Shown: positions 32,432 to 59,682 of the stretch, piece by piece
How the letters are laid out: each line of letters starts with the position of its first letter
How positions within the stretch are numbered: position 1 is the stretch's first letter
Assembly (NCBI RefSeq): GCF_004152935.1
Contig: NZ_SETE01000001.1
Span: 372,001-436,000, forward strand
DNA length: 64,000 bases
Direction of reading: 5' to 3'
Source: Brumimicrobium glaciale
GTDB taxonomy: Bacteria > Bacteroidota > Bacteroidia > Flavobacteriales_D > Crocinitomicaceae
The notes under the pieces: model-generated
Databases searched by the model: none
The model's input: only the letters and a program-made list of their open reading frames with translations
Told to the model about the DNA's origin: nothing
Made by a program: the position numbers and the translations under genes

Positions 32432-32620
32432 TCAGAATAAAACATCCTCTACCTCATCAACATCCAAACCTAGATATATAGAACATTCCTTTATAGTAAT
32501 ATACTGATGTGATTTTTTCAGGTAGTGCTCCTTCATCTTTTTGATAAGCTCTCGCGAATATCGTTCAGACTTTCCAGTGATGATCATGACGTCTTTTGTA
32601 TGGAGAACGATACGCTTCAT
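32432..32620 (-). CDS. Small conserved protein, possible DNA-binding (62 aa)
   Basis: A 62-residue basic protein (MKRIVLHTKDVMIITGKSER at the start). The segment TIKECSIYLGLDVDEVEDVLF looks like a helix-turn-helix with an acidic tail. I do not recognise a named family. That it is real is supported by the partial second copy at 24601-24714, where the differences are largely in codon position 3 or conservative (D-V-D-E to D-V-L-E, D-V-L-F to E-V-L-F). It ends 4 bases from the convergent CDF gene and marks the right edge of the metal module. Confidence 0.7.
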   Translation of the reverse strand: MKRIVLHTKDVMIITGKSERYSRELIKKMKEHYLKKSHQYITIKECSIYLGLDVDEVEDVLF

Positions 32621-34752: not shown

Positions 34753-37700
34753 ATGACACAAAACCTACACCTCTTTGAATTAGGCGAGAAAGTTAGTGAT
34801 AAACACATTGATCAAATTATTAATGATTTTTATATTGCTTTCAAAAATGATACCGGAAAGAAAAATAATTATGAATTTGATTTTTCGAAATTAAAATGGA
34901 TTTCTAATCAAGAATTATTGATTCTAACTGGATTGTTTCAATACTTAATAGATGTCGGTATTAGTTTTAAAGTTAATTTCTTAATTAAGGGTTCTAGTTC
35001 AAATATTGATAAAAAAATTGCAAGACAAATTATTCAAATTTGGGATGTTTGGAAAATATATCAAATTGTTCCAAATAATGATTATAACAGGTATTTCGAT
35101 ATTGATGGAGGTTTTGTTGATCGAATTAGAAAGCAATTCAACATAAGCTCATCAAACCAAGAAATTTATGATAGATATGGTGTTACACCTTTTTTAAGCT
35201 TACCTAAAATTGAAAAATATGATGATATTGCAATTTCAGAATTATTAAATAAAGTTTACAGTTTATCAGAGGCAACTAATCAAATATTGGAAAGTAATGG
35301 TTGTTACTTGCCTTTTGAAAACAAAACACTAAACTCCATAATAACTAAAGAACTTTATGAAAACTTTTTAGACCATTTCACTAAATCATTTTTAAATAGT
35401 CATAAAAATTATTCTTTTTTAAGTATCTCCTTAAAAAAGAAATTGAATAAAGATTATTTTGAAAAAGAGAAAATACAATCATTGCTGAAATTAAACTTTA
35501 AAGAAGAAAATTTATATGATTTAAAACCATTCTTTTTTAATGATTTTAAAAAAGAATATAAAAATGAATCATACCTTCAGATATCCTTTCTAGATTTTGG
35601 AGAAGGCATAACTAAAACATTAAATGAATCTTATTCTAATCAAAAAGAAGCTAGTATCACAGACTCGAACATACTTAAGTATGCTTTTGAACCTTTATCA
35701 TCGCAACATACAATTCAGGAAAGATTTAGTGAAAATATAATTACACCAAGAGGATTATTTGATGTTTTAGTAATTGTTAAAAGATTTGAAGGATTAATTG
35801 TTATTAGAAGTAACCATGGAAAAATAGCTTATGATTTTTCTAATAATAAATCTATTGAAGAGGCTATTATATCCTTTGGAGATGAAACTTTATATTTCCC
35901 AGGATCTTTAATAAGTATTTATTTGCCTGAAAGACAGTTAGAGAAAAAGTTTGACAGTACCTCCATTAAACCAAACGTTAACTTCAATAATTTTAATTTT
36001 AATAAGAGTAGTAAAAAAACAGTACGGTTGTTTGATATTCAGAATCAAATAAAATCAACATCTTCCTCGAAAAGTGAATTATATAATAATCTTTTTGAAT
36101 TATTATTAGGGGAATTGAATTCAGATAAAAACGATTCATTAATATATTTGGATTTTCAAGGTTATGAGATAGATGAAAGAGTAGCCAAGAAAATTATTTA
36201 CTTCATATGCACTGATTATAGGTTTAATTATCAAAACAATATTATAGTTCTTAATCCACCCGAAAAGTTTTTTCTTGAGAATATTAAAGATGAAATATCA
36301 GAATTAGAGGAGGTTGATAAAAAATTTAGATTTCATCCAACTCCATTTGTTTTTATAAATGAACTTGTAAATGAACTTGAAATTTTCTGGTTGGGAGTTT
36401 ATTCAGATAAGGATATTAATAAGCTTAATGATTTATTATTTGATGAACATGATTTAAGATCTTCTGATTTCGAATGCCCAGAGGATATTATTGGACATAT
36501 TAATAGATATGATAAATATGGTAATCTATATTCTTCAATTAATTCAAAAGAAATATTTAAGTTTTACAAGGAAATACAAAATGCTTCAATTCATGAAGAA
36601 ATACAAAGTATAGTAGAAAGTTGTATTCAGAAAGAAGAAAGTTGTATTTATTTATGTAATGGAAACTATTATCAATACGAGTATCTTTTGTTGAATGAAG
36701 TTCTTTCAAATGAAGAAAAGCTTAACTACCTCTCTAAAAATTTATTCTTAAAAATTCAAGAAAGATTCGGTAGTCTCGAAGATGTTTTATTTACCGGAAT
36801 TACGGCAAGTAGTCATAAGATATTGGACTCATTGATTAATCAGGATGATTTGAAAATGGAAAACTGTATATATCTTAATAATTACTTTTCTTTTGAAAAA
36901 GAGAAAGCATTTTTAAAGCTTATTAAGCATGATTCAAAAGTGATATTATTATGTGATGTGATTTCTACTGGTTTTTTAGTTAATAAATTTGAGTCCCATC
37001 TAATTGAAAACAATGTAGATTTAATTGGAATAGGTGCCTTAGTGAACGCGATAGATAATGATTATTCAGGTATTGATTATAGCTATATCATGAAAAAATT
37101 AACATCTACATTTAATTATAAATTAGAAAAAAAGCGAAGATCAGAAATTAGTGAATTGTTAAATCAAAATAAAATAAAAGTAATTAGAATAAATCCATTT
37201 ACAAATACTCCAATTACTCATTCTATAAAAGAAACTAATTCTAATGAGTCCATATTGATAGATAATCATGAATTTATAAAACTTTTAGATCCTTCCGAAA
37301 TAAAGATAGGTTATTTTGAGTTCAACAGTTTAATCCATCCATACTTTTTTGATATGGACACCATTCTTGATAAATCAAATCCAGCTTCAAATAAAATCTT
37401 AAGCGCATTAATAAATAGATTAGAAAATAAAATAAACATTAGAGATATAAATTTAATCTTTTATCCAAAGGAATCTGGGATAAAAAATATTGATTTTGAG
37501 TATTTCAAAAATAATATTATTCCTAACCATAGTTTAGAATTTATAAAGTTGGAACGATTTCAAACGAATGAAGGATGGAGGTTTTCTCATCCACCAAAAT
37601 CATTGATTGAAAAATGTAAAAATAAAAATGTTCTAATTTTAGATGATGGTTCATGTTCTGGAGAATCTTTATTGCAAATGATTAATGAAGTGGCATTTTT

Positions 37701-39462
37701 TGACGTTAAAGAAATTACCGCAATTTCAATTGTAGGAAGAGTTAATGACCATAAGCGAGAATTTTTTTCCAGATTAAAATCAGTTCAAGCAGGAGGGAAT
37801 TCGGTAGCAGTCAATATTTATTTTGGTTGCCATTGGCATCTGCCAACTTACCATCTTTCTAAAAGCCCAGTTATAGATGAAATAAATTGGTTAAAAACAA
37901 TACAATCTTTCACTAATTTACCACTTAATTTAAAAAAAATCATTCAAGTTGTCCATAATGAATTGAAATTAAAACCAATCAAAGAAAGTAATAATGATCA
38001 TATAATTAAATCAAAAGACAACTCGGTTATAATAAAGGATTTAATAATTACTAGAAATGAACTTGGGAAATTATCAGAATTTAGGTTTTATACAGAGTAT
38101 TTCAATTATCTAGACCATTTTATATCTCAATATGAATCGAAATCAAAAAAGAAAAGAGGTAAAAGCCCCTATAAAGATATTGAACTTATCTGTGGGGTTT
38201 TAATTCACGAACCATATTTATTTGAATCTCTAAAGAAAATTGTTCCAGATTTGGTAGACAATTTAAAGGATTTTATTTATGCTCTTTTTTGGAATGAAAA
38301 TATTATCGATCAGAAATTATTAAACTATAATTGGGATATCAAAAATTTTATTCATTTAGTATTTATCATTTTTAATGAAAATGAAATAATTAAAGATATA
38401 GGTATTAAAAAACTTTCAATTTTACTTAATAAGTTTTGTATAAAGAGCTCAGATAAAAACTATTTTTTTTACCGAATATTGAAGTATTTACATGTAAGTG
38501 AAAATGATAAAAGTTCTAAAAAGCACTCACCAGAATTTCTGAATTTGTCAATTGAACTAATAAGTATGATTGATGAGGATACTTCTCATTATAAGGCGAT
38601 TCCCTCCTTTTTTGCTTCATTACCGAATAATGTCGCGGATTATTATTTTCAACTTAACACCGTTATTAACAATTATAAAAAATTACATCAAGATTCTTCA
38701 CACAATGAATATATATTTAACGATAAACAGGTTATAATTTCCTCTTTAAAAGTAATTGAAAGAAATAATCGATTGCATTCTGATAGTGTAGAACAAATTA
38801 AAGTAATAAGAAAATCTTGGAAACAAATTTCGGAATTCATAGAATCTCTCCTTCGTTTCTCTAGTAGCTTCCCAAATTACTTTATTTTCAATCAAGATTA
38901 TCTTTTATTGGAGGAAGCAAACAGGTCTCTTAGAACATTACATGGTTATCTATCTAATGAATTGTATAATGGAGATTTTCTTAATATTTCTAATATTAAA
39001 TCACTTATTAATGAAGTGTTTGAAGAATTCATAAATGAAGATACTAATTATTCAAATCTCTTTTCACAATCTAAGAATGTGAATTTGAGTAGTAAGGTTA
39101 AACAATTGATTTCCGAATTGAAATCTTCAAACGAGGCTTGTTTTTTTGAATTAGATATAGAGAATGATGTATGGATTGAATTTCCAACTTATTACTTTGA
39201 ACAAATAATATCGAAGGAAATAATTGGAAATATGAGATTTGCGGATTTAAACAAACCGATTAAAATTAGCTTAGAAATAATAAATAGTTCGGTGTTATTA
39301 CTAATCAATAATAAAATAAACTTTAAAGATAAAATTTCAAAAGGAGGAGGTAAAGGAACTGATAGACTGGAAAGAATAAATTTATTTAATCATAATACTA
39401 ACTATGAGTCCCAAACCAACGGGGACTTTTATTTACAGAAAATAACATTTACAAAAACTTAG
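34753..39462 (+). CDS. STAS/GHKL/PRTase/PRTase/GHKL multidomain protein (1569 aa)
   Basis: I recognise domains rather than a named family. An N-terminal STAS-like segment (about residues 40-90, FDFSKLKWISNQELLILTGL). A GHKL-ATPase-like part with FLDFGEGI near 279, TPRGLFDVLVIVKRFEGLIV near 331 and FPGSLISIYLP near 382. A second STAS/DUF4325-like strand (SLIYLDFQGYEIDE) near 460. A phosphoribosyltransferase-like motif VILLCDVISTGFLVNKFE near 729 and another, NVLILDDGSCSGESLL, near 958. A helical region (1100-1470). A C-terminal GHKL domain with N-box-like ISKEIIGNMRFAD near 1487 and GGGKGTDRLERINLF near 1531. It is soluble, Lys/Asn/Ile-rich, and 4 bases upstream of a TIR gene. A sensor-kinase-like role controlling the TIR effector is my inference. 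Confidence 0.75.
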   Translation: MTQNLHLFELGEKVSDKHIDQIINDFYIAFKNDTGKKNNYEFDFSKLKWISNQELLILTGLFQYLIDVGISFKVNFLIKGSSSNIDKKIARQIIQIWDVWKIYQIVPNNDYNRYFDIDGGFVDRIRKQFNISSSNQEIYDRYGVTPFLSLPKIEKYDDIAISELLNKVYSLSEATNQILESNGCYLPFENKTLNSIITKELYENFLDHFTKSFLNSHKNYSFLSISLKKKLNKDYFEKEKIQSLLKLNFKEENLYDLKPFFFNDFKKEYKNESYLQISFLDFGEGITKTLNESYSNQKEASITDSNILKYAFEPLSSQHTIQERFSENIITPRGLFDVLVIVKRFEGLIVIRSNHGKIAYDFSNNKSIEEAIISFGDETLYFPGSLISIYLPERQLEKKFDSTSIKPNVNFNNFNFNKSSKKTVRLFDIQNQIKSTSSSKSELYNNLFELLLGELNSDKNDSLIYLDFQGYEIDERVAKKIIYFICTDYRFNYQNNIIVLNPPEKFFLENIKDEISELEEVDKKFRFHPTPFVFINELVNELEIFWLGVYSDKDINKLNDLLFDEHDLRSSDFECPEDIIGHINRYDKYGNLYSSINSKEIFKFYKEIQNASIHEEIQSIVESCIQKEESCIYLCNGNYYQYEYLLLNEVLSNEEKLNYLSKNLFLKIQERFGSLEDVLFTGITASSHKILDSLINQDDLKMENCIYLNNYFSFEKEKAFLKLIKHDSKVILLCDVISTGFLVNKFESHLIENNVDLIGIGALVNAIDNDYSGIDYSYIMKKLTSTFNYKLEKKRRSEISELLNQNKIKVIRINPFTNTPITHSIKETNSNESILIDNHEFIKLLDPSEIKIGYFEFNSLIHPYFFDMDTILDKSNPASNKILSALINRLENKINIRDINLIFYPKESGIKNIDFEYFKNNIIPNHSLEFIKLERFQTNEGWRFSHPPKSLIEKCKNKNVLILDDGSCSGESLLQMINEVAFFDVKEITAISIVGRVNDHKREFFSRLKSVQAGGNSVAVNIYFGCHWHLPTYHLSKSPVIDEINWLKTIQSFTNLPLNLKKIIQVVHNELKLKPIKESNNDHIIKSKDNSVIIKDLIITRNELGKLSEFRFYTEYFNYLDHFISQYESKSKKKRGKSPYKDIELICGVLIHEPYLFESLKKIVPDLVDNLKDFIYALFWNENIIDQKLLNYNWDIKNFIHLVFIIFNENEIIKDIGIKKLSILLNKFCIKSSDKNYFFYRILKYLHVSENDKSSKKHSPEFLNLSIELISMIDEDTSHYKAIPSFFASLPNNVADYYFQLNTVINNYKKLHQDSSHNEYIFNDKQVIISSLKVIERNNRLHSDSVEQIKVIRKSWKQISEFIESLLRFSSSFPNYFIFNQDYLLLEEANRSLRTLHGYLSNELYNGDFLNISNIKSLINEVFEEFINEDTNYSNLFSQSKNVNLSSKVKQLISELKSSNEACFFELDIENDVWIEFPTYYFEQIISKEIIGNMRFADLNKPIKISLEIINSSVLLLINNKINFKDKISKGGGKGTDRLERINLFNHNTNYESQTNGDFYLQKITFTKT

Positions 39463-39466
39463 AAAT

Positions 39467-40396
39467 ATGGAATGGAATGAAATTGCAGAAGAAACAATTT
39501 TAATGTTTTTTGATGAGAAAGTTAATTTTGAATTACCTAAAACTAAACAGAAATTAGCAAAAGAATTGTTTAGTGATATAAAACTAATACAAAGTCTAGC
39601 TGATTTTGAACAGATTATTGAACAAGAAGAAACGGATCAAAAGTTCTTATTCTTTGTCCACCTTAATCACAGTAAAAAAAACAAAGGCTATGATGATTTC
39701 AAAGCTTCTAAAATAAAACTTAGATATCCTAATTTAAGATGTTACTATATCTCATCTGTTCCTAAGAAAACTATATTTAAAGATGGTAATGATTCATTAG
39801 ATGTATTTTCTTACGATAATTTTCATGATAAAATTGGAGAAACATTCATTCCTCAAATTAGTTCAGAAATTTCTTCTCAAGAGAAAAGTGAAGAAATATT
39901 CAGGAAAGGAATATTTTTGAGCCATTCTTCAAAAGATTCAGAATTAGTTAGGAAATTTAGGGATTTAATTTTAGTGTCTGGACTTGGCTATGATCCTAAA
40001 ATTATAAAATTTACTAGCCAAGAAAGTTATGGAATCCCAGGAGGAATTAATATTCCTGAAGACTTAAGAAATTTCCTTAGAAATGAGATGGGATTATTTA
40101 TTCAGTTTTTAACTCCTAATTATTTGGATAGTAGGATATGTTTGAATGAAGAAGGTGCGGGTTGGTGTCTTTTAGATGATGAAAAATATTTCATTCCTCT
40201 TCTTATCCCTCCAAATAATCATAAATTACTTTCTTGGATAAAAACTTCAAACAAAGGTATTTGTATAGATGATAAAGGTTCATTATCAAATATATATGAA
40301 GATCGGAAAGTTTTTTTTGGAACAAATGTCAATGGAACAAATCTTCAACAAAATATTGAGAAATTCGTTGATTATCTTAAAAATCAAGTTGTTTGA
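39467..40396 (+). CDS. TIR-domain protein, probable effector of the PRTase/GHKL module
   Basis: 309 residues. A TIR domain runs from about residue 147 (GIFLSHSSKDSELVRKFRDL) with the middle strand/loop LFIQFLTPNYLDSRICLNEE and the probable catalytic Glu near 228 in LNEEGAGW. A C-terminal strand FIPLLIPPNN follows. The first 130 residues alternate helices and strands (FLFFVHLNHSKKNKG, RCYYISSVPKKT) and could be a degenerate receiver-like or adaptor domain. TIR domains of this type in defence systems usually cleave NAD or make cyclic-ADPR signals. It starts 4 bases after the large gene and has no other partner, so the pair is likely one system. Confidence 0.82.
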   Translation: MEWNEIAEETILMFFDEKVNFELPKTKQKLAKELFSDIKLIQSLADFEQIIEQEETDQKFLFFVHLNHSKKNKGYDDFKASKIKLRYPNLRCYYISSVPKKTIFKDGNDSLDVFSYDNFHDKIGETFIPQISSEISSQEKSEEIFRKGIFLSHSSKDSELVRKFRDLILVSGLGYDPKIIKFTSQESYGIPGGINIPEDLRNFLRNEMGLFIQFLTPNYLDSRICLNEEGAGWCLLDDEKYFIPLLIPPNNHKLLSWIKTSNKGICIDDKGSLSNIYEDRKVFFGTNVNGTNLQQNIEKFVDYLKNQVV

Positions 40397-40409
40397 TTTA
40401 ACCATTCGT

Positions 40410-40728
40410 TGTTCTTAAAATGCTCTTTGTGCATGCTGGATTGATATGATACATGTTATCTGATTTTGTGTTCAATCCACCTCATCATTTTTGAGATGGA
40501 CTTAACGGATTTATAATTACTGTTTAATTAATTGGTGAACTAGAAGTTGGCGTAATTGCTTTAAAGTGTTCTGGATTCGCTTGTAGTTCTCTTCCTGCTG
40601 CTCCAATTGTAAAAATTATGAAACAGTCTTCTTGATTGCTTCGGGTTTATGAGAAGTGACTTTTTGTGCATCCTTAATAATTTTGATGAGGTCATCATTT
40701 CGAATGAAGGGGATGATTGATACGATTA
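40410..40728. repeat. Left copy of a ~320-bp direct repeat
   Basis: 40410-40728 matches 42741-43059 at a nearly constant offset of 2331 with scattered substitutions. It includes the shared GTTCTTAAAATGCTCTTTGT start and the 3' part of the DUF6943-like gene. The two copies bracket the DUF4365-like gene pair. The rest of the spacer up to 41013 shows no gene or structure. Confidence 0.85.
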
Positions 40729-42550: not shown

Positions 42551-42848
42551 TAATTATAATCAATTATTAATAAAACCACAATGGATCCATTTTTGTTTTC
42601 CGTTTTTAAAAGGCTTAAGAAATCAACTTCTCACAAAACTTATAAAGCCTTACAAACTTACTCCTCTCATTTCCTGGAGGAGTTTCAGAAATCTTCTCTT
42701 TAATTTTCTCCATTTCTGCAGGAATTTCCTTCCTGGGCATTGTTCTTAAAATGCTCTTTGTACATGCTGGATTGATATGATACATAATATTTAGTTTTAT
42801 GCTCAACCCACCTCATCATTTTTAGAGATGGGTTGAACGGATTTATAA
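42551..42848. other. 298-bp spacer, includes right direct-repeat start
   Basis: From 42741 it repeats the sequence at 40410. A minus-strand frame through 42615-42806 (ending SKFVRLYKFCEKLIS) has some coding-like look but no start signal and no recognised family, so it is not called. The convergent gene ends at 42849. Confidence 0.4.
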
Positions 42849-43271
42849 TTACTGTTTAATTAATTGATGAACTAGAACCTGCCTTAATTGCTTTAATGTG
42901 TTCTGGATTCGCTTGTAATTCTCTTCCTGCTGCTCCAATTGTAAAAGTGATGAAACAGTCCTTTTGATTGCTTCGGGTTTGTGAGAAGTGACTTTTTGTG
43001 CATCAGCTATAATTTTGATGAGGTCACTTTTCCTAATGAAAGGAATCACAGATCCAACCAAAGCAATTTGAAATTGTTTTCCTTGATGCAGGGAATAAAC
43101 TATCCAGTACAAACTTTCTTTTTCGCTTTCTGAATTGCAGCTTATCACAAAGCAATTCGGGCAAGGCTTTTTGAGTGGTTTTCCACTGTTTAATCCTTTG
43201 TTTAGGATAAAGAAGTGCGGGCCTTTATACACGCCTTCTGGTCGATAGGTAATCATTTTGAAATTAGACAT
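42849..43271 (-). CDS. DUF6943-like small protein (140 aa)
   Basis: 140 residues from ATG 43271; a longer frame to 43418 has a low-complexity Phe/Ser-rich extension that is not protein-like. Diagnostic text is MITYRPEGVYKGPHFFILNK, then GKPLKKPCPNCFVIS with a CPNC motif and a C-terminal coiled-coil (LQLEQQEENYKRIQNTLKQL). This resembles the Bacteroidota family I know as DUF6943, often carried on integrative elements; function unknown. A broken 3' copy lies at 40517-40735. Confidence 0.7.
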   Translation of the reverse strand: MSNFKMITYRPEGVYKGPHFFILNKGLNSGKPLKKPCPNCFVISCNSESEKESLYWIVYSLHQGKQFQIALVGSVIPFIRKSDLIKIIADAQKVTSHKPEAIKRTVSSLLQLEQQEENYKRIQNTLKQLRQVLVHQLIKQ

Positions 43272-43640
43272 AACTCGTTGTTTAAAAATTAAGTCATATC
43301 TAAGTCGCTTCGCTCCACCATTAACTCCAAAAGAAAAAACCAAAGAAAACGACCAAAAAGGCCGAAAAAAAAGGAAAAAAGAAAGCTCATTCACAGGGCT
43401 AAAGAGCAGGTTTGTCAAGGTTTTTGACGATAAAAATTTTGACTCCTGCCGTTAAACCCACAAATGAATTAGCATCTTTTGATAAAAGCAAATGATAGTT
43501 AGAATGTGATCACAAAATTATTATTGCAAAACCCGGAGGGCTCGACCTTTACAAAGCTGTGGTTAGCCCTATCTTTGCTTTTATTTTTTTATTTTATTCT
43601 CTCAGGGATAAGGTAGATTCCTTTTTAAATCGAAGCTTTA
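43272..43640. other. Gene-free spacer upstream of RNA array
   Basis: Contains a purine-rich tract (43325-43390) and a segment AACCCGGAGGGCTCGACC near 43531 followed by a T-rich stretch. I see no gene. The segment may be an element terminus or promoter region, but nothing decides it. Confidence 0.3.
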
Positions 43641-44950
43641 AGCTCAATAGAAATACTGTAATGATTGTACAGAGGTATTACTTCTTTATTCAAGTGTAGG
43701 TGTTCTTTTGTATGTAAGGAAAGGTGTTTCGAAAGGAAAAACGATTTAGACAAAGCAAAAGTTAGATGTACAAGCGAACACATACTCTTGACTTCCTTAA
43801 TGTTTAATTGGAACAGAAAGATTAAGTACCTGCTGACCTTTTGGGAGGCTGGTACATTTCAGGAGAAATGCTAATCGGAAAAGTTACTAATGTTCTAATC
43901 AGAGAGGAAAGTATTTAATCGAAGAGGTATGCTTTTTTTTATTCGAAGGGATTCGTTTTTACAAGTGTATGTGTTTATTGATTAAAGGAATTGTTGTTTC
44001 AATAGGTGCAATGACCTTTAATAGTTTAAACTAATGTAATAGAGAAACACATACTCTTGACTACTTTAATGCTTAAATGGAAAGGAGAGTTAAAGCACCT
44101 GCTGACCTTTTGGGAGGCTGGTGCATTTTAGGATATGTGGTAATGATTATTCAGAGGAGTAAAGTTTATAATCGAAGAGAGTAGGAGCTTTGTTTTGTTC
44201 GAAGGTATCATGTTTTACAAGTGTATGTGTTTTTTGATTTTAGGAAATGTGTTTTCAAGATGGTAAACGATAGTGCTAAAGCAAAAGCCAATTAAATGAG
44301 AAACACATACTCTTGACTTCTTTAATGCTTAAATGCAAAGGAAAGTTAGAAATACCTGCTGACCTTTTGGGAAGCTGGTATATTCTAAGAGAAACTCTAA
44401 TCCATAGAGTAAGTTTAAATCGAAGGCCTTATGTTTGATTAAATGCATGGTAACTTTTTTTATAATGCAAGTCTTTGGAAGTATTGGCAATCTTGAGAGT
44501 AATCTTTTAAGAGTTTAATTCAGGTCGGAAACTGTTAAATCGAAGGAATATGTAAGAATATTCATTTAGTGCCAATTAACACTGATAATAGCACAGGAAA
44601 AACAGCCTTGAGCTTTCTATTCAACAAGAACGGAGAAATAATGATTTAGTTTTGGATAAAGCATAATTCGGAGGACGCGAGCCGCCTTGCGAGTGGAACG
44701 AGGGGGGGCGCAACAAATGGATGTGGAACAGACAGGTTGCAACCTCTGTGCTTTTTGGCACACGAGGGGCGTTTCCAGTTTTTTGAATTCGAAGGTATAA
44801 TGTTTTACAAGTGTTGGTGTTTTTTTGATGCAATGCAATGGAGACAAAAAATAAGCCAACGCTTGACTTCGGTAATGCAAAATAGAATGATAAAGTTAAA
44901 GTGCTTGCTGACCTTTTTGGGGCAGCTTGCACATCTTAGGGTAATGCCAA
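43625..44950 (+). ncRNA. Tandem array of four structured repeats, strand tentative
   Basis: Four units each hold hairpin H1 and hairpin H2. H1 arms are 43692-43705/43776-43789, 43963-43976/44045-44058, 44219-44232/44301-44314 and 44809-44820/44853-44864 (AAGTGTATGTGTTT with AAACACATACTCTT in unit 2). H2 lies at 43826-43855, 44095-44124, 44352-44381 and 44901-44932, with core CCTGCTGACCTTTTGGGAGG. Arm changes are compensatory: H2 ends are GTACC/GGTAC, GCACC/GGTGC, ATACC/GGTAT and GTGC/GCAC. A box TTTAATCGAAG recurs between units; a degenerate stretch at 44410-44560 has the box without H1 or H2. No protein frame is conserved between units. Transcription and function are unknown. Confidence 0.65.
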
Positions 44951-45215
44951 AAAACTGGAAGCGCCCTGAAGCCTGAGAGACCAGCAGGCGAGCCATACAA
45001 GACGCTGCGGTGACACCCCATTTAAAAACTTCGCTTTAGCGAAAACCGAATAGGGGTTTGGGGTGGCAGAGTAGCAGCAACTGAATGAGGAGACACCCAC
45101 AGCGAGAAAAATAAGTGGAGTGTGGCGCGCGGAGTTTCCGAGTACGACACAATGGAACGGTAAAAACAAGCCCGTAGTGCAACGGAGCTTTGTATAGGCT
45201 TGTTTTTATATTTTT
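44650..45215 (+). ncRNA. GC-rich, probably structured RNA with terminator
   Basis: This segment is far richer in G+C than its surroundings but has no convincing frame. It contains an 18-bp helix (44767-44784 with 44949-44966, one G-T pair) enclosing unit 4 of the repeat array. It also has a small hairpin TGTGC-TTTTTG-GCACA near 44746, a CACCCCA/TGGGGTG helix (45014-45020 with 45059-45065) enclosing hairpin TTCGCT-TT-AGCGAA (45030-45043), and an 11-bp terminal stem (45162-45172 with 45197-45207) followed by a T-rich run like a Rho-independent terminator on the plus strand. Several overlapping frames on both strands here look like spurious products of a conserved RNA. Confidence 0.5.
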
Positions 45216-45671
45216 TGAGCAGGGTGGTGGTGACGATTGAAGACCACTTTTCCTGTGCCATACAATCTTTAGAAATCACCAAAATATGCGAAGCTAAAAA
45301 CCAAAAAATCGGCAGCTGTTGGTTGCGGAGGATAAGGTTTAATAATTCAGAGATGTTAGTTCGTGGCCTTTTATCGGAGGAGTAAGCTCTTTCTATTGTG
45401 GAATGCTTAGTTTGAAAAGCAATATTATGCCCCGATGGAGACGGAAAGCTTTATGAAATGGTTTGCACAGGAACACGCTAGAACAAAGCGACCTTGTGAA
45501 GCTCTTGGAATAGCGATTGTTTCCGTAGCAAAAGCATGAATAAACTTGGAGGTGGAGACGGATTAGGCGCATGATCTTAAGACATTAAATCTTATTAATC
45601 TTGAGTAGGAATCTTTATAGTTCATAATATGGGAGAATGTCTTAGGTATTGGGTAGTTTGAAATCAGTCTG
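45216..45671. other. 456-bp spacer, no gene seen
   Basis: Composition returns to the local average. A few short stems are possible but none stands out. The convergent minus-strand operon ends at 45672. Confidence 0.35.
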
Positions 45672-49303: not shown

Positions 49304-50263
49304 TTATCTTGGCCCCATAAAACGGTCGCCATTAAAGTGTATCATATGATCGGGAATTTCTGAAAGCCAAACTTCTGTTTCCCACGCAATGTCATTGGAG
49401 TATTTCTTAAAGTCTTTTAAGTCGATAAAAGCGGTGACATAAACTTTTCCTACTTTACAGTTTATTAGGAGCTCTTCTAATTCTACAATTCTTTTTGGTG
49501 AAATAGGACCATGAGATGTTACTGCTTCAATTAAGAAGAGCCAATTTCGTTTCGTATCATGAATTACTACATCAGGAAGTTTACTATGCTGATCTATTGG
49601 TATTCCTAATCCAGCTAGTGCGGAGTCATTTCGGTACAAATCTTTTTTTGCGGTATCACCGACATATAACAATTGACTTCCTGGTGCAAAGCGAGGAGCA
49701 AACTCCTTTATAATGTCAATTTGTAATTCATTATGTTTGCCAGGAGAGAACTTTAATTCTGTACCGTCTTCTAGCTTTAATGGAATTTTTCGATATTCTC
49801 GTTTCTTCGAATACTTTTCTTTTAAAGAGCCTATTTCATTTAGAAAAAGATCGATTTCTTTTTTCCATTTTGTAGATCCATAAGATTGTACAACCTTTAA
49901 AGCCTCGGGTGAGATACGATAATGATTGTCTTTACTGTTTGTTGCTAACTCTGGGTTTTCAGGATTATGGTTGACTATTCCTGCTTGAACAAATTGATGT
50001 AAAGTTTGTCGTCTTATAGTCTCTCTTGAGTTTTCAGCATAGTTTTTATCGTATTCATCAGCCATAAATCGCATAATGCCATCGTATTTTGCGTTATTTT
50101 TATTCCCCATTACAGACATGCTGAGGGCTTTTGCATCTTTCCATTTAGATTTAGGTGATATTTGGCAAAGTGCGAGTAAGGTTAATGCTGAACGATCATT
50201 TTGTTGTCTTGTAGGTAAACCTAGTTCTTTTAAAATGGCTTTGGCTTCTTCAATTTTATTCAT
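49304..50263 (-). CDS. BsuBI/PstI-family type II restriction endonuclease
   Basis: 319 residues with the two-part layout of the BsuBI/PstI family. A helical N-terminal domain (ALTLLALCQISPKSKWKDAK, MRFMADEYDKNYAENSRETI) is followed by a PD-(D/E)xK domain: LLYVGDTAKKDLYRND, KLPDVVIHD with the catalytic Asp, and FLIEAVTSHGPISPKR carrying E-x-(V/T) in place of E-x-K, as in relatives. Family prototypes cut CTGCAG, but specificity here is not proven. Its ATG overlaps the methylase stop (ATGA). Confidence 0.88.
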   Translation of the reverse strand: MNKIEEAKAILKELGLPTRQQNDRSALTLLALCQISPKSKWKDAKALSMSVMGNKNNAKYDGIMRFMADEYDKNYAENSRETIRRQTLHQFVQAGIVNHNPENPELATNSKDNHYRISPEALKVVQSYGSTKWKKEIDLFLNEIGSLKEKYSKKREYRKIPLKLEDGTELKFSPGKHNELQIDIIKEFAPRFAPGSQLLYVGDTAKKDLYRNDSALAGLGIPIDQHSKLPDVVIHDTKRNWLFLIEAVTSHGPISPKRIVELEELLINCKVGKVYVTAFIDLKDFKKYSNDIAWETEVWLSEIPDHMIHFNGDRFMGPR

Positions 50264-51840
50264 TCTGTTAATTCTAATTCTATTTGATTATTAACTAATT
50301 CATTTATAAAGTCAATTGTGAAATTGTTATTTTCTAAAATTGTACTTCCAATATTTTGTATTACTTCTAGGTCAGGCAATGTCATTTCTTTTAATTCGGT
50401 TGCACTGACATTTACGTTTCCGTTGAAAATCCGAAAATAGGTATCATAGATAGTGCTCGATAACAAAGCTGCAATACCAACTGTTTCTTCATTGGATAAT
50501 TCACCACCTGGGCGATATATATAATTCACTTTGTTTTCTAAACCTATCAGCTCAGCTTTTTTATAATATTGTAGATATGGCGCTGCAACTAATCTATTCT
50601 TATCGTCCTTACTGCTAAATCTTCGCAGTAGTACATAATTTTTGTTTGGTACTAGAAGAGGTTTAGCTAACGGTTCAATATTAATGTATTGCTCTTTTTT
50701 AGGTTTTACAATGGGCCATTCAATTTCCATTTGCTTAATGTTGTGTAACCAATATAGAGGTGCTAAATAGACGTTTGAGTTTTGATACTCACTTCTCAAG
50801 TATTTTTTTGAACGAAATGCTACAACAGGGCCAGTAGAGACTTTAACTCCGTAATCAATAAATTTGTTACGCCAAGTTCTAAAAACACCTAAAACATGTT
50901 CTTCATAATCAGAAGTAGGTAAATACATTATCTTTTCATCGGTGTTTAAATCAAGAACTCTATCAGAAGAATAAGTTCTTTTTCTTGCATTGTCAATATC
51001 AACTATACCTGAAGATGAAGAGATTTCTGTTTGATTGCCTAATTTGTATTCTTGTTTAAATCCATTAATTATCACTGTTTCTTGAAGTACTTTGTCTCTG
51101 CTAAAGGTGTCTTTTCTTGAAACAAATAGATGAACGTTGTTCAATTGAATTTTCTTAAAAAAGAATGAACGAAATACTTTAAAGTAACCTCCAGATGCAT
51201 AGCTTCTTGGTGTGATAAAAATTAATTGACCATCATTCTTTAGAAGTAAAGTAGATAATGCCATGAAAATAGAATAAATATTCGCATGACCACTATAAAC
51301 AGCAGAAGCGGCAATTGCTCGCAAATCAGTTTTAGCTATCTTGAAATATGGAGGGTTTGAAATTACTATATCAAACACTTCTGATTCTTTATAAAATAAA
51401 TCACCAGATGTATCTCTAAAACAGTGTGCGTTGTGAAGAATGAAGTCATGTTGTCTAATTTCGTAGGTTAAAACAACTTCATTTTTAGCTGCGAACTTTA
51501 AAAGATATTCCAAGGATTGAATTGTTAATGGTATGACGTCCTTATCTATTTCATAAACAACTAATTCAATTTTCCGAACTAACTTATTATTAGCTATTAT
51601 CTTTTCAACCAATGCACATGATAAAATTCCTACTCCAGTTCCCGGATCTAGAATTTTCAATTCCTTTCTATTGGAGTTGAAGTAGGCAGCCATGAAATGT
51701 GCTATTTCTAATGGTGTAAAAAATTGCCCATTCTTTTTCTTATGGTCTTTTGAAACTGAATCTGCATATAATTCGCCTAATCTTTTAGCAAAAGAACTAG
51801 GAGACTCATCATTTTTTGGTTTTAGGTGAATTGATTCCAT
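50260..51840 (-). CDS. Adenine-specific DNA methyltransferase (N6, gamma-type)
   Basis: 526 residues. SAM-binding motif I is LKILDPGTGVGILSCALVEK near residue 61 and catalytic motif IV is VISNPPYFKIAKT near 158. The N-terminus (KKNGQFFTPLEIAHFMAAYF) is typical of Eco57I/PaeR7-like N6 methylases, and the C-terminal half is a target-recognition region (YRPGGELSNEETVGIAALLS). It would protect host sites from the adjacent endonuclease. It overlaps the controller gene by one base and the endonuclease gene by three. Confidence 0.9.
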   Translation of the reverse strand: MESIHLKPKNDESPSSFAKRLGELYADSVSKDHKKKNGQFFTPLEIAHFMAAYFNSNRKELKILDPGTGVGILSCALVEKIIANNKLVRKIELVVYEIDKDVIPLTIQSLEYLLKFAAKNEVVLTYEIRQHDFILHNAHCFRDTSGDLFYKESEVFDIVISNPPYFKIAKTDLRAIAASAVYSGHANIYSIFMALSTLLLKNDGQLIFITPRSYASGGYFKVFRSFFFKKIQLNNVHLFVSRKDTFSRDKVLQETVIINGFKQEYKLGNQTEISSSSGIVDIDNARKRTYSSDRVLDLNTDEKIMYLPTSDYEEHVLGVFRTWRNKFIDYGVKVSTGPVVAFRSKKYLRSEYQNSNVYLAPLYWLHNIKQMEIEWPIVKPKKEQYINIEPLAKPLLVPNKNYVLLRRFSSKDDKNRLVAAPYLQYYKKAELIGLENKVNYIYRPGGELSNEETVGIAALLSSTIYDTYFRIFNGNVNVSATELKEMTLPDLEVIQNIGSTILENNNFTIDFINELVNNQIELELTE

Positions 51841-52145
51841 TATCTTTTAGGTTTATTTAGGTATTCAACTTTGGCTTCGGCTACTTTTAGTATTTCTGAA
51901 GCGAATTCTTCATTAACAATTTCATAAAGTACTTTGTCACTAAAGTAATTAATAAGCATTTGTTTTTCATCAACATTAAATAATTCAGCAAACTTAATGA
52001 TTAGCTCACGTGTTGCTCTTCTTTCCCCACGTTCAATTTTGCTCAAGATTGATTGATCTATATCAACTGCTGCAGCTACCTTTCTTAAAGGAAGATCGTT
52101 TGCTTCTCTCAATTCACGAATTTGTTGGCCTATTGTTTTGGGCAT
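51840..52145 (-). CDS. XRE-family controller protein of the R-M system
   Basis: 101 residues: an HTH_3 domain at residues 6-60 (IGQQIRELREANDLPLRKVA, then DIDQSILSKIERGERRATRE) and a short C-terminal helix. Its position at the head of the methylase and endonuclease genes, with one-base overlap, is that of a C (controller) protein which delays endonuclease expression in a new host. A matching inverted repeat lies 6 bases before its start. Confidence 0.85.
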   Translation of the reverse strand: MPKTIGQQIRELREANDLPLRKVAAAVDIDQSILSKIERGERRATRELIIKFAELFNVDEKQMLINYFSDKVLYEIVNEEFASEILKVAEAKVEYLNKPKR

Positions 52146-52151
52146 AATCTA

Positions 52152-52172
52152 TTTAGACATATTTTGTCTAAA
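52152..52172. promoter_or_regulatory. Likely controller-protein operator
   Basis: A perfect inverted repeat, TTTAGACA-tattt-TGTCTAAA, lies 6 bases upstream of the controller ATG. The half-site recurs at 52386-52393 followed by ATTTGTCAG, giving a second imperfect site, and CTGACAAAATT appears twice nearby (about 52377 and 52427). Autoregulation by the XRE protein is the likely use. Confidence 0.6.
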
Positions 52173-52714
52173 GTTATGAATATATGTTGAAGTTTAATCA
52201 ATTCAAGTAATATTTTATTGGATTGCCATTCGCAATTGGGTGTTCTTCTATGGATGTGGATGGTTTTCTAAACCTGGAATCTCTTTTCCTGAGTTGAGAT
52301 GGATTTCAGGGAGCTCGTGTTTGAATTGGGTGGAGGTTCTTTTGGTTTCTTTAAGGGTATTTGTTTTGGACTAAAACTGACAAAATTTAGACAAATAGCG
52401 ACATTTGTCAGTCAAACTGACAAAATTAGCTGTCGAATTAATACTATTTAGGTTGTTTTGTCATAAATTAACAAACGGCATAGAGGTTGATGAGAAATCT
52501 CCTTTAATAGAAATAGCCGCCCTAAGGAGAGCGACTATTCAAGATTGTGAATCAGCTGTGACCAAACTAACTGATTCATGAACTTTTTTCAAGTTTGAGA
52601 GTGCAAATGTATCAACTTTTTTGATAACACCTAATACTTCCAATCTTTTTTCTCTTTCGTGGTTCACACATCGTGAAGTGTGTATACTATTTATTCATTC
52701 TCAAAATAAAAGAA
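52173..52714. other. 540-bp divergent intergenic region
   Basis: Lies between the minus-strand R-M operon and the plus-strand Thoeris operon. Apart from the GACAAA/TTTGTC repeats at 52377-52437 it holds no gene or RNA that I can support. It must contain both promoters. Confidence 0.4.
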
Positions 52715-52942
52715 ATGGGAAAAGGAAAAAATCAACATGTTGTAAAACACCCAGATGGATGGGCTGTTAAAGGAGCTGGTAATTCAAAGGCTACCAAAGT
52801 AACGAAAACGCAAAAAGAAGCCGCCGATGTAGGAAGAGGTATTGCGAAAAACCAAAAATCTGAATTACTGATTCATGGTAGAAATGGGCGAATCCGAGAG
52901 AAAGATTCGCATGGTAATGATCCGAGAAATGTAAAAGGGTAG
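52715..52942 (+). CDS. DUF2188-like small protein (75 aa)
   Basis: 75 residues from ATG 52715; an upstream in-frame start at 52673 adds a hydrophobic stretch not seen in the family. The sequence HVVKHPDGWAVKGAGNSKAT, then QKEAADVGRGIAKNQKSELL and IHGRNGRIREKDSHGNDP, matches the DUF2188 pattern of one small beta-rich fold of unknown function. It is 4 bases upstream of the first TIR gene and leads the operon. Confidence 0.78.
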   Translation: MGKGKNQHVVKHPDGWAVKGAGNSKATKVTKTQKEAADVGRGIAKNQKSELLIHGRNGRIREKDSHGNDPRNVKG

Positions 52943-52946
52943 GAAT

Positions 52947-53552
52947 ATGGGATTATTTACAAAAGAGAAACTTATAAATAGGGTTCAAAATGAATTAAGA
53001 AAAGGCGGTGAAATTCATCTCAGCGCTAATGATAAGGCTACAACATTTTTAAATGAATCAAAAACTGAACAAAGAAGGTTTTCTGAGAAGATCTATGATA
53101 TATTTTTATCACATAGTTCTGACGATTCAAGATTAGTGGCTGGATTAAAATTAGAATTGGAAGACATGGGGTATTCTGTTTATGTAGATTGGATTGAAGA
53201 TCCTGAATTGGATAGAACTAGAGTGACTAAAGTGAACGCGAATTATTTAAGAGAAAGAATGAAACAATGCAAAACGCTTCTTTATGCTTTTTCTAAAAAT
53301 GCATCAGAGTCTACATGGATGCCTTGGGAACTTGGATATTTTGATGGAATTAGGGGGTTTGTAGCAGTAGTTCCTATCGCTGAAACTAATACCTCTACAT
53401 TTAATGGAAACGAATACCTAAAAATATACCCTTATATTGATAAACATGGCTTGAATTTTACTAACAAACCTCATATTTGGGTTAATGAATCAAGTGATAC
53501 CTATGTACTATTTGATAAATGGATTCAAGGAACTAAACCAATTAAAAGATGA
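52947..53552 (+). CDS. TIR-domain protein, Thoeris-associated (thsB-like)
   Basis: 201 residues. After about 45 helical residues the TIR domain begins IYDIFLSHSSDDSRLVAGLK, then MGYSVYVDWIEDPELDRTRV, TLLYAFSKNAS and the catalytic Glu near residue 128 in WMPWELGYFDG. In Thoeris such TIR proteins sense infection and make a cyclic-ADPR isomer that activates ThsA. Its stop overlaps the ThsA start (ATGA). Confidence 0.85.
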   Translation: MGLFTKEKLINRVQNELRKGGEIHLSANDKATTFLNESKTEQRRFSEKIYDIFLSHSSDDSRLVAGLKLELEDMGYSVYVDWIEDPELDRTRVTKVNANYLRERMKQCKTLLYAFSKNASESTWMPWELGYFDGIRGFVAVVPIAETNTSTFNGNEYLKIYPYIDKHGLNFTNKPHIWVNESSDTYVLFDKWIQGTKPIKR

Positions 53553-54982
53553 AAGCAGAACACGAGTCGTTTATAAAAGATTTTCTAGAAAGTATTATAG
53601 AGAATAAAGCCGCAATATTTGCAGGAGCAGGCTTATCTGTTGGAGCAGGATACGTTGATTGGAAAGGGCTTTTGAAAGATGCAGCTGAAGAAATTGGTTT
53701 AGATGTTAAAAAGGAAGATGATTTAATCTCGTTGGCACAATTTCATTATAATGAAAATGGTGGACGAAGCAAATTAAATAAAAAAATTCTGAAAGTTTTT
53801 ACCGATGAAGTTGAAGCAACAGAAAATCATGGAATATTATCACGACTACCTATTGACACATTCTGGACTACCAATTACGATAGTCTAATTGAGGATTCAC
53901 TTGAATCCTATAACAAAATAGTAGACGTTAAACATGAAAACGGTCAGTTACCTAATTCCACTCCAAAAAGAGATGTAACAGTTTATAAAATGCATGGGGA
54001 CGTTAAACATGCACATGACGCTATAATCACTAGGGACGATTATGAAAAATATTTTCGTACTCATGACCCATTTGTAACCACATTAAAAGGTGATCTCACA
54101 ACTAAAACATTCTTATTTATAGGTTTTAGCTTCTCGGATCCTAACCTCGATTATGCATTGAGTAGAGTCAGGTTAAATTTCCATGAAGGTGCTAGCCATC
54201 ATTATTGTTTTGTAAAGACTATTTCAGAGGAAGAATGTGAAGACAAAGCTGAGTTTGATTACAAAACTAGAAGACAAGAACTTTTAATGAATGACCTTAA
54301 AACTTATCAGATATTGCCTGTTATTGTTAACTCCTATAGTGAAATAACAGATATTTTATCAGAGATAGAAAGACGATATAAATTGAAAAGTGTTTTTATT
54401 TCTGGAAGTGCTGAAGAGTATGGAGAATGGGGAAGGGATCGAGCAATAAAGTTAATTCACAAATTATCATCTAAACTGATTTCGAAAAACTATAGAATTG
54501 TCAATGGATTTGGTTGGGGTATTGGTAGTGCAGTAATCAATGGAGCACTCGAACAAATATATCTCAAGCCTAAAAAGTATTCAGAAGATCAATTGATTGT
54601 TAAACCCTTTCCTCAATTTGCTACTGGTGAAAAGGAGCTTCCTGAACTCTGGCAGGACTACAGGGAGAGAATGATCTCACTCACAGGGATAGCAATATTT
54701 CTATTTGGGAATAAAATAGATCATAAAGCACAAACGATAGTTAATGCTGGTGGAGTTAGAAAGGAATTTGATATTGCTGTCAGACAAGGTTGTATACCAA
54801 TTCCAATCCATTCTACAGGTTATATTTCAAAAGAACTATGGGATGAGGTTCTAGAAAATACAAAAAAGTACTTTCTAGAAAATGATTTAAAGGAAGACTT
54901 CGAATCACTTTTAGACGAATTTGCTGCAGACAAAATAATACAAATTGTTATAAGAATGATTGAAAAAATAAACAAAAAGTAA
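53549..54982 (+). CDS. thsA: Thoeris effector ThsA (SIR2 + SLOG)
   Basis: 477 residues, about the length of characterised ThsA. The SIR2 domain has AAIFAGAGLSVGAGYVDW near residue 22, TTNYDSLIED near 106 with the catalytic Asn and YKMHGDVKHAHD near 146 with the catalytic His, then FLFIGFSFSDPNLDYAL. The C-terminal SLOG domain has SVFISGSAEEYGEWGRD near 282, NGFGWGIGSAVINGAL near 320 and a signal-binding region GGVRKEFDIAVRQG near 395. It depletes NAD+ when the TIR-made signal binds SLOG, causing abortive infection. Confidence 0.92.
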   Translation: MKAEHESFIKDFLESIIENKAAIFAGAGLSVGAGYVDWKGLLKDAAEEIGLDVKKEDDLISLAQFHYNENGGRSKLNKKILKVFTDEVEATENHGILSRLPIDTFWTTNYDSLIEDSLESYNKIVDVKHENGQLPNSTPKRDVTVYKMHGDVKHAHDAIITRDDYEKYFRTHDPFVTTLKGDLTTKTFLFIGFSFSDPNLDYALSRVRLNFHEGASHHYCFVKTISEEECEDKAEFDYKTRRQELLMNDLKTYQILPVIVNSYSEITDILSEIERRYKLKSVFISGSAEEYGEWGRDRAIKLIHKLSSKLISKNYRIVNGFGWGIGSAVINGALEQIYLKPKKYSEDQLIVKPFPQFATGEKELPELWQDYRERMISLTGIAIFLFGNKIDHKAQTIVNAGGVRKEFDIAVRQGCIPIPIHSTGYISKELWDEVLENTKKYFLENDLKEDFESLLDEFAADKIIQIVIRMIEKINKK

Positions 54983-54984
54983 TT

Positions 54985-55614
54985 ATGGCTAATAAAATAT
55001 TCGTTTCATATAAACATAAGGATTCTAAAGTGAAGCCAATTTTGAATAGCTCTATTAGTGTTATCACTACTGCACGTCATTATGTTGATGTGATAGAGGA
55101 ATTACTTGATGAAACTGACCATTTATATAAAGGGGAAAGAGAAGGTGAGGATATTGGTAGTTTTGTCGATACAACAATAGGCTCAAAGTTAGGAGATAAA
55201 ATTTTTGATAGCTCAGTAACAATAGTTTTGATATCAAAAGGTATGAAAGAAGATAGAAGTGAAAAAGAACAATGGATTTGGGAAATTTCATATTCACTTA
55301 GAGAACAGACTAGATTGGGGGGTAGGAGTAAATCAAATGCCATTTTAGCTGTTGTGCTTCCCGATGAATATGGAGACTATTCTTATTTCATGACTGCAAA
55401 TTCAGCTTGTAATAGTATTACATACAAGGCTGGGGAGTTATTTCAAATTCTGAGAGACAATATGTTTAACTTAAAAAATAAAGAAGATAATATCAGGGAG
55501 TGCAATGGCACTACTGTTTATGCTGGAGAACCTTCATACATTAAAGTTATTGAATGGGATAAATTTAAACATAACAGTAATTATTATTTAGAAAAAGCTA
55601 TAAATATTAAGTAA
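54985..55614 (+). CDS. Second Thoeris TIR-like protein
   Basis: 209 residues with a divergent TIR-like fold: KIFVSYKHKDSKVKPILN, a long acidic insert (IEELLDETDHLYKGEREGED), SVTIVLISKGM, then QWIWEISYSLRE with the candidate catalytic Glu and a strand AILAVVLPDEYGDY. This matches the Thoeris ThsB-type TIR seen as a second sensor in multi-TIR loci. It begins 2 bases after thsA. Confidence 0.8.
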   Translation: MANKIFVSYKHKDSKVKPILNSSISVITTARHYVDVIEELLDETDHLYKGEREGEDIGSFVDTTIGSKLGDKIFDSSVTIVLISKGMKEDRSEKEQWIWEISYSLREQTRLGGRSKSNAILAVVLPDEYGDYSYFMTANSACNSITYKAGELFQILRDNMFNLKNKEDNIRECNGTTVYAGEPSYIKVIEWDKFKHNSNYYLEKAINIK

Positions 55615-55655
55615 AATATAAACGATTATAATATTGTAAAAAAATCAAATAAGTT

Positions 55656-56294
55656 ATGTCCAGAAGAGTTTTTTTTAGTTTTAATTTTGAAGATGTCTCT
55701 GACTTTAAGGTAAATGTTGTAAGGAATAGTAGGGCTTTTAAAAACAATGGTTTAGAAACAACATTTGTTGATAAATCTTTATGGGAAGAGGCATTAAAAA
55801 AAAGTCCTAATACAATAAAAACTTTAATTGATATTGGAATGAAAGGAACTAGTGCAACTACGCTTCTAATAGGTGTGAACACTACCAATAGAAGGTGGGT
55901 GAACTATGAAATAATAAATAGTTTTGTGGAAGGAAAAGGGATTTTAGCAATTCATTTAAATAGAATTAGATCAAGAACTACAAAAAAAATATCTCGAAAA
56001 GGAGTAAATCCATTGTCTAGGCTTAAGTTAAGAATTGATTCGGAATGTAAAAAAATATATTTTTATGAATTAAAGGATGGGAAATGGATTGTTTTTAAGG
56101 ATATTCCATTCGTTAATAATCGAAAGACTAATTCTTTTTACTTTAGAACCGGACATATTTTTAGAAGAAGCCAGGCGGGGAGTGAGTATAAGTTTTCCGA
56201 ATTATTCGATATGGAATACTGCTGGAAAATTGATGATGGATATAAAAACTTTCCTAATTGGGTTGAAAAAAGCGTGAAAATAGTTCAAAGATAA
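55656..56294 (+). CDS. thsB: Thoeris ThsB, MTH538 TIR-like domain (DUF1863)
   Basis: 212 residues of the DUF1863/ThsB type: RRVFFSFNFEDVSDFKVNVV at the start, TFVDKSLWEEALKKSPNTIK, TSATTLLIGVNTTNRRWVNY with the Glu that follows in YEIINSF, and GILAIHLNRI. The N-terminal phrase is close to that of ThsB proteins that pair with ThsA. A 41-base gap separates it from the second TIR gene, so three separate TIR sensors may feed one ThsA. Confidence 0.85.
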   Translation: MSRRVFFSFNFEDVSDFKVNVVRNSRAFKNNGLETTFVDKSLWEEALKKSPNTIKTLIDIGMKGTSATTLLIGVNTTNRRWVNYEIINSFVEGKGILAIHLNRIRSRTTKKISRKGVNPLSRLKLRIDSECKKIYFYELKDGKWIVFKDIPFVNNRKTNSFYFRTGHIFRRSQAGSEYKFSELFDMEYCWKIDDGYKNFPNWVEKSVKIVQR

Positions 56295-56305
56295 ATTGTG
56301 AAAAA

Positions 56306-57559: not shown

Positions 57560-57656
57560 CTAACATAGAATGATTGATTCTTGAAATTTAATTGTTTTAG
57601 CAGATATATCTTTTTTAATAAGGCAATTTAGACTAACATGACACAAATATCATTAT

Positions 57657-57757
57657 TCCTTTGCCACTTCTCTTAAAACCTATATATTAGTATCGATTTA
57701 GGTGGTTAGGTTAGGTTTATAAGAGGGAATAGAACGCTCGTTCATTCCCTCTTATTG
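57657..57757. repeat. 101-bp direct repeat, left copy
   Basis: Matches 59471-59571 with 5 differences and no gaps. It includes the hairpin at 57721-57753. The pair brackets the PIN-domain gene. Confidence 0.9.
57721..57753 (+). terminator. Terminator hairpin inside the left repeat
   Basis: AAGAGGGAAT-a-GAACG pairs with CGTTC-ATTCCCTCTT (15 bp, one bulge, 2-nt loop), then ATTG and a T run. It ends the Thoeris transcript. Confidence 0.75.
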
Positions 57758-57859
57758 TTTTTTATAAATGCAGTAGTCACCTTTGTACGTCATCCAAATT
57801 CTTTTTCTAAACCCTTTGTTTTATAATTTATTAATTCAGAATACTTATTAGGTTTGGAC

Positions 57860-59345: not shown

Positions 59346-59470
59346 CAATGATTGTTTAATTTCTTATCATTTTAAAAGCCTTTTAGGGTTTCAGCTTTTT
59401 ATGAAATTTAATGGCTTGATATTTTAGTTTTAGTAATCAATTTAAAGCATCATCACACAAAAATAATTAA

Positions 59471-59571
59471 TCCTTTGCCACTTCTCTAAAAACCCATATA
59501 TTAGTCTCGATTTAGGTGGTTAGGTTAGGTTTATAAGAGGGAATCGGACGCTCGTTCATTCCCTCTTATTG
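59471..59571. repeat. 101-bp direct repeat, right copy
   Basis: Second copy of 57657-57757 (96 of 101 bases equal). Its hairpin, 59535-59567, keeps pairing through a G-T pair. Since no plus-strand gene ends here, its terminator has no obvious client, which supports duplication. Between 59572 and 59682 there is no other feature. Confidence 0.9.
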
Positions 59572-59682
59572 CTTTTAAACGAGTTTTCAAAAATTAACTC
59601 TAGATAAATCCAGTACCTATCTTATGTTTCTCCAGCTTATAACATTCATTTTAATTATTGCTATTAGTTGTACATTCGTTTT

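Follow-up and report, generated by a model that had tools for sequence, protein, structure and literature searches.

Only a few described RNAs invite comparison with the locus reported here. GOLLD and ROOL are large, ornate RNAs of phages and prophages, described in the literature as having no known function. OLE RNA, likewise large and ornate, is ~600 nt long, forms part of a ribonucleoprotein, and is reported in Gram-positive extremophilic or anaerobic bacteria. Noncoding transcripts are also abundant in the PLE phage satellites of the ICP1 system (PMC7567579). The subject of this analysis is a stretch of 64,000 nt from Brumimicrobium glaciale (contig NZ_SETE01000001.1, positions 372,001 to 436,000; here called the window), in which repeated hairpins very probably belong to a new structured RNA of a mobile island. 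Like GOLLD and ROOL, this RNA is large and elaborately folded. Unlike them, it lies in islands of Bacteroidota, downstream of genes for two proteins designated P249 and P91; it also carries a multiplied domain and lacks a phage or viral-contig match (one blastn search and two exact patterns). It shares with OLE its size and ornate fold and differs from it in its Bacteroidota host and in having no Rfam match. PLE noncoding RNAs can be likened to it in kind; the PLE host is from a different phylum.

Repeat units and the large RNA

A sequence-only reading of the window had described four structured repeats, each with two hairpins (H1 and H2), as a tandem array at 43625-44950. Direct repeats do stand at this place, in four units spanning 43691-44932, and their start-to-start spacing of 269, 256-257, and 549-550 is that described (269, 256, and 550 by repeat pair D1; 269 and 257 by D3). 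The arm changes were also read correctly, with GTACC/GGTAC, GCACC/GGTGC, ATACC/GGTAT, and GTGC/GCAC in H2, and with TATG/CATA becoming TTGG/CCAA in unit 4 and TTT/AAA becoming TTC/GAA in unit 1 in H1. The H2 core, said to be nearly invariant, is indeed kept: with at most two mismatches, TGCTGACCTTTTGGG is found four times in the 64 kb, every time inside the units, where 0.11 occurrences are expected, and none of 100 shuffles reaches four. Across the 4.27-Mb genome, there are four matches at the locus and five elsewhere that are at chance level (E values of 0.28 to 0.99). As for the claimed absence of an open reading frame (ORF), among ORFs of at least 80 aa none longer than 103 aa overlaps 43625-44950; unit 4 is overlapped by two on the minus strand, of 87 and 103 aa.

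The array is thus real, and it was delimited too narrowly: conserved noncoding sequence extends from an upstream element to ~45261 (Table 1). Nor do the units form a stand-alone array family. When ten copies from the genus and 22 further copies from the family were aligned, a conserved noncoding stretch of ~670 nt became apparent, with a long-range closing stem of 14 nt that is 93% complementary. Within it, a long helix bearing unit 4 at its tip shows double changes in 10 of 18 pairs (28 sequences). Units 1-3 align to the same part of the large-RNA profile as unit 4 (positions of about 209-389) and so represent additional copies of its domain. By eye, units 1, 3, and 4 of the window resemble units 1, 2, and 3 of a Brumimicrobium aurantiacum locus (L021), where unit 2 has no obvious counterpart; the array therefore seems to predate the species and yet to be still changing.

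Table 1. Positions of the RNA, its parts, and the associated genes in the window
Feature	Position	Strand	Remarks
P249	32933..33682	+	Uncharacterised 249-aa protein; conserved partner
P91	33666..33941	+	Small protein with TPPFFKKLR motif and hydrophobic stretch; conserved partner; start codon uncertain
DUF6943 (PF22105) gene	42849..43418	-	Frequent neighbour on opposite strand; start codon uncertain
Conserved upstream element	43395..43595	+	Hairpin region and promoter-like box TATCTTTG at 43570-43577
Unit 1	43691..43855	+	H1 arms 43691-43702 / 43779-43790; H2 43826-43855
Unit 2	43962..44124	+	H1; H2 44095-44124
Unit 3	44218..44381	+	H1; H2 44352-44381
Large structured RNA, ~670 nt	44588..45261	+	Closing stem 44588-44601 / 45248-45261
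Long helix	44766..44967	+	Arms 44766-44785 / 44948-44967; unit 4 at tip
Unit 4	44808..44932	+	H1 arms 44808-44819 / 44854-44865; H2 44901-44932; within large RNA
Source stretch of covariance model R1	44966..45087	+	122 positions

The stretch has the marks of a large ornate noncoding RNA, being longer than 500 nt, conserved, covarying, multi-branched, and without a long ORF; GAGTAGCnGC and ACTGA flanks are conserved outside the predicted helices. In the window, minus-strand ORFs that overlap it reach 103 aa. Several observations count against this reading. Antisense ORFs overlap the RNA in some relatives, with lengths of ~93 aa in seven loci and ~227 aa in five (L126, L127, L138, L139, and L140). 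In addition, the unit domain is missing from the RNA of two genus copies (L055 and L059), and another locus (L060) has two units with the large RNA absent. Decayed copies are seen in L063 (8214-8381) and L061, where the RNA core is gone and pieces of both flanks are left.

Covariation and strand

That compensatory change reflects selected structure had been proposed from the four units, and the larger alignment supports it for both hairpins. Across 22 units, 97.7% of the 220 H2 cells are paired and double changes occur in 7 of the 10 pairs, giving a covariation score of 0.529, compared with 0.274 ± 0.023 for shuffled and no more than 0.145 for slid controls. Further pair types in H2 are not above shuffles (354/500). 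H1 in the same number of units is 88% paired with 30 double changes, as high a value being reached in 0 of 1000 shuffles, and the result also holds for the 16 distinct arm pairs. In the 3' domain (30 copies), 92.2% of 1697 cells are paired, and 37 of 57 pairs show double changes; its score, which is favoured by the structure having been derived from the same alignment, is 0.412, where shuffled controls give 0.138 ± 0.008 and slid controls no more than 0.120. The shuffle controls ignore relatedness, and the slid controls keep it. As judged from these alignments, the RNA-like structure is conserved and covarying.

To which nucleic acid the structure belongs is addressed by the G.U and A.C cells. 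G.U outnumbers A.C by 13 to 1 in H2 and by 48 to 20 in the 3' domain, and this excess, in a count that leans to RNA as the structures were predicted with RNA rules, favours an RNA read on the plus strand over a DNA cruciform. Folding energy cannot tell the strand, because the ~670-nt stretch lies 6.4 standard deviations below shuffles on the plus strand and 6.3 on the minus strand; of the two coding controls, one is near zero and the other at -2.2 and -2.6.

Relation to known families and distribution

The sequence-only reading knew of no RNA family that fits, and we likewise find none: of the 4227 families of Rfam 15, a set that we take to include GOLLD, ROOL, OLE, and introns, not one reaches its gathering score in the locus. 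At an E value of ≤5, only Thr_leader (22.4 bits; gathering score, 55) and TMV_UPD-PK3 (16.1 bits; gathering score, 34) appear. A known RNA family was rejected, with Rfam lacking a match at gathering or relaxed threshold. A search of titles and abstract beginnings on large RNAs, Flavobacteriales islands, Bacteroidota satellites, and integrative elements, with subscription papers mostly outside its scope, did not have the RNA among the matches listed.

As phylum-wide blastn among 395 genomes recovered only the genome of origin and one other (G241), a covariance model was needed. This model, R1, matches 62 of 240 genomes of the family, in 16 of 24 genera (E ≤ 0.001), and 33 of 395 genomes of the class, in 28 of 197 genera (E ≤ 0.01), the class-level search having used stricter filters that lost some matches. 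Named Brumimicrobium strains carry the RNA, among them B. salinarum, B. oceani, and B. aurantiacum. The window region gave zero blastn matches to phages and plasmids, and two exact patterns gave none in viral contigs. Four loci (L179, L180, L181, and L188) have the same genes followed by a conserved noncoding stretch, most with the H1 motif AAGKG...CTCTT. R1 does not match them, which counts against our reading; the stretch is probably a diverged form of the RNA.

Conserved partner genes

Among 39 sequences examined, the P249 family is present in 29, P91 in 22, and DUF6943 in 17. The maps that were drawn place P249 and P91 on the same strand as the RNA and upstream of it, with DUF6943 on the opposite strand. 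P249 and the RNA occur together in 50 of the 240 family genomes, and 158 have neither (Fisher P = 6.6e-24, uncorrected for relatedness); against the pairing stand 20 genomes with P249 and no R1 match and 12 with an R1 match and no P249. There are 104 RNA places in these genomes; P249 is on the same contig for 62 of them and within 30 kb for 61. In these 61, the strand is always the same (61/61) and the RNA is downstream of P249 in all but one (60/61), at a median distance of 4.0 kb (range, 1.0 to 26 kb). For the other 43 places, P249 is either more than 30 kb away (one place) or missing from the contig (42 places), which counts against a fixed association, many of the contigs being short. A single-contig genome (G059) contains six RNA places and six P249 genes, paired one to one. 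Outside the family, P249, P91, or DUF6943 is upstream in 7 of the 13 RNA-seeded loci fetched, and 6 have no partner. Locus L219 (G673:C1:50000-69000) holds the complete module twice, arranged head to head with P249 next to P249.

Neither a family nor a fold match was found for P249. Its AlphaFold model has a mean pLDDT of 76; Foldseek gave nothing at E ≤ 0.001 against PDB and BFVD, and the best VIA-align Z score, 4.5, is uninformative, falling mostly over the C-terminal beta-sandwich with the helical N-terminal part barely covered. Searches of 50,697 phage records and of viral contigs gave no match for P249, and P91 likewise had none in phages; the plasmid collection contains P249 on one plasmid. 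DUF6943 is named in no paper of the literature searched, and DUF5675 is named in phage papers. In other families, the gene that follows P249 encodes DUF5675 in the five whole proteins scanned (L179, L184, L185, L186, and L189, the match in L189 being below the cut-off). P91 may be holin-like, and DUF5675 might act on the cell wall. If these roles are right, they would point to a lysis- or release-like function of the P249-DUF5675-P91 module, and the island that carries it might be a phage satellite; no helper or packaging gene was seen in the limited search made.

A promoter-like element upstream

The element upstream of the RNA, ~200 nt long, was matched by nhmmer 48 times in 45 of 68 sequences. 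In every row with a computed distance it lies 5' of the RNA, 68 to 6437 bases away. Considering the last 110 bases of the 46 full matches, TAnnTTTG is present in 36, TAnnTTGY in 5, and neither in 5, compared with 135 and 132 occurrences, respectively, in 2250 random 110-mers. In Flavobacterium psychrophilum, TAnnTTTG has been described as the -7 box of sigma-A, and TAnnTTGY as a further motif (PMC9723704). The five elements without a box count against our reading, as do the cargo genes that often stand between the element and the large RNA; since cargo often intervenes, a single transcript over both is not general. In the window, one transcript would likely span the promoter-like element and the RNA. 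As mapped, the place of the RNA is constant, being downstream of P249, P91, and this element.

An integrative island bounded at tRNA-Lys

The clearest view of the mobile context comes from G050, where a 23.2-kb island is bounded by the 3' end of tRNA-Lys and an 18-bp att repeat. The tRNA gene ends at 65418, the 18-bp copy of its 3' end is at 88578-88595, and a tyrosine recombinase is encoded at 65656-66936. Between the repeats lie the recombinase, an HTH_17 protein, an ATPase, cargo, the RNA, DUF6943, P91, and P249. Domain matches are to Phage_integrase and HTH_17; the ATPase has sub-threshold NCBIfam matches only (PRK08116, 38.4 bits versus 189; DnaI, 18.8 versus 228). Direct repeats of a tRNA end together with an integrase, as expected of an integrative island, were found for this one copy. 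This gene and repeat content places the RNA in an island that carries its own tyrosine recombinase and whose ends, in one genome, are tRNA-Lys and an 18-bp repeat. In G780, G846, and G072, a second copy of the tRNA end is absent from the stretch examined, and the window contains neither a tRNA nor recognizable bounds of its own island copy.

Further loci bear on attachment at tRNA genes. In L126, L144, L220, and L221, P249 has a tRNA-Lys(ttt) at a distance of 267-858 bases, and in L136 a tRNA-Arg at 940 bases; 47 of 54 sequences scanned have no tRNA. Elsewhere in the genome of the window, a truncated piece of the P249 end stands beside two tRNA-Lys genes. In L138, the att core shared with G050 lies between the recombinase and P249, with a flank equal to the left end of the G050 island, an order expected of a joined circle or a tandem. 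Plasmid p1 of Marivirga (L240; NZ_CP129969.1), circular, 25.3 kb, and typed as non-mobilizable, carries an integrase, a frameshifted P249, DUF5675, a P91-like gene, and the RNA (R1, 41 bits; E, 3e-9). This plasmid looks like a circular form of the island; its P249 is unannotated.

A known array of recombination sites had been named in the sequence-only reading as an outcome that would overturn it. That alternative is right in one sense only, as the RNA belongs to an integrative island; the att site in the one bounded copy is the tRNA-Lys 3' end and not the units. Integron attC sites form series of imperfect inverted repeats whose loops vary, within an element that encodes a tyrosine recombinase, and the units resemble them in each of these respects. 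They differ in that the att site of the bounded island lies elsewhere than the units. An integron attC array was rejected, units 1-3 separating no gene cassettes, as was an IntI-type integrase, the G050 recombinase scoring 48.8 bits against an integron integrase cut-off of 265.

Defence genes and composition of the window

By PADLOC, 143 sampled neighbouring proteins match 343 models and 147 control proteins match 13, these being counts of models rather than of proteins, as one protein can match many. The neighbour sample is 143 of the 277 proteins that remained once near-duplicates, core families, and locus L062 had been taken out, and the controls are 147 of 194 proteins from 14 regions of 12 related genomes. 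Two alignments in the scan join unrelated proteins, the sole purpose being to scan every member. With Pfam, genes for metal transport and further accessory genes were recognized near the RNA. By these domain matches, the neighbouring genes are defence-rich, and the cargo changes between relatives.

Beside the RNA in the window, 49304-57559 encodes a BsuBI/PstI-type endonuclease, an Eco57I-type methylase, a TIR protein, SIR2 with STALD, and a ThsB-like TIR. At 34753-40396, a 1569-aa protein with a weak phosphoribosyltransferase match adjoins a TIR-domain protein, the two possibly forming a two-gene defence system. The window looks composite, with duplicated pieces at 24605-24718 and 32436-32549, 40409-40714 and 42740-43046, and 57582-57762 and 59402-59576. 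Among them are the sequence that precedes P249 and some of the DUF6943 region, and the duplications are perhaps marks of cargo insertion. An Acido-Lenti-1 RNA (RF01687) is found at 17040-17086 on the minus strand (47 bits; gathering score, 37), in a Bacteroidota host outside the groups of its name.

Interpretation and alternatives

We consider it probable, the proposed role included, that the units are a repeated two-hairpin domain of a large noncoding RNA of Bacteroidota integrative islands. The RNA would be transcribed from the promoter-like element, here over about 1.7 kb comprising units and core. Its repeated domain may be a binding module whose multiplication would bring in additional copies of a partner, and the RNA could work with the products of P249, DUF5675, and P91 as a ribonucleoprotein or assembly scaffold, its action timed to excision, replication, or transfer of the island. 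We offer this ribonucleoprotein or scaffold mechanism only tentatively, and with less assurance for any one partner.

It is quite improbable that the units instead act as recombination sites for cargo insertion, made of DNA folded as single strands (attC-like sites or recombinase-binding cruciforms). An integrative island family with a tyrosine recombinase and differing cargo would suit such sites, variable-loop hairpins resemble them, and both strands of the region fold better than shuffles. Against them, units 1-3 have no gene between them at a spacing of 256-269 (no ORF of at least 80 aa), the bounded island uses the tRNA-Lys end, and orientation to P249 never varies. The flanks conserved outside the helices fit RNA, and the G.U excess points the same way, with its bias from RNA rules.

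The two other alternatives accept an RNA and differ on its task. The conserved promoter-like element and the long structured stretch could make up a very long leader or regulatory RNA that controls a gene downstream in cis, a reading made very improbable by the genes 3' of the RNA, most of which lie on the opposite strand and which vary from copy to copy. The RNA might also serve defence, as an effector or regulator of toxin-antitoxin-like or abortive infection type, and be cargo of the island instead of part of its machinery. The excess of PADLOC models among its neighbours would agree with this; we hold it unlikely, as the position and strand of the RNA with respect to P249 are preserved whereas the surrounding defence genes vary.

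Beyond the probable reading as a repeated RNA domain lies a speculative and rather doubtful extension, in which these Bacteroidota islands are built around an RNA-protein machine, the RNA and its multiplied hairpin domain joining P249 and DUF5675/P91 in a particle, or in an apparatus for transfer, by which the island is moved. If so, the RNA would be a structural part of horizontal transfer. Bacterial RNA classes this large are few. A conserved protein module, a promoter-like element, and a bounded mobile element accompany the present RNA, which is found in named Brumimicrobium strains, so that partner, particle, and transfer can each be tested, and it points to a defence-carrying island family of Bacteroidota.
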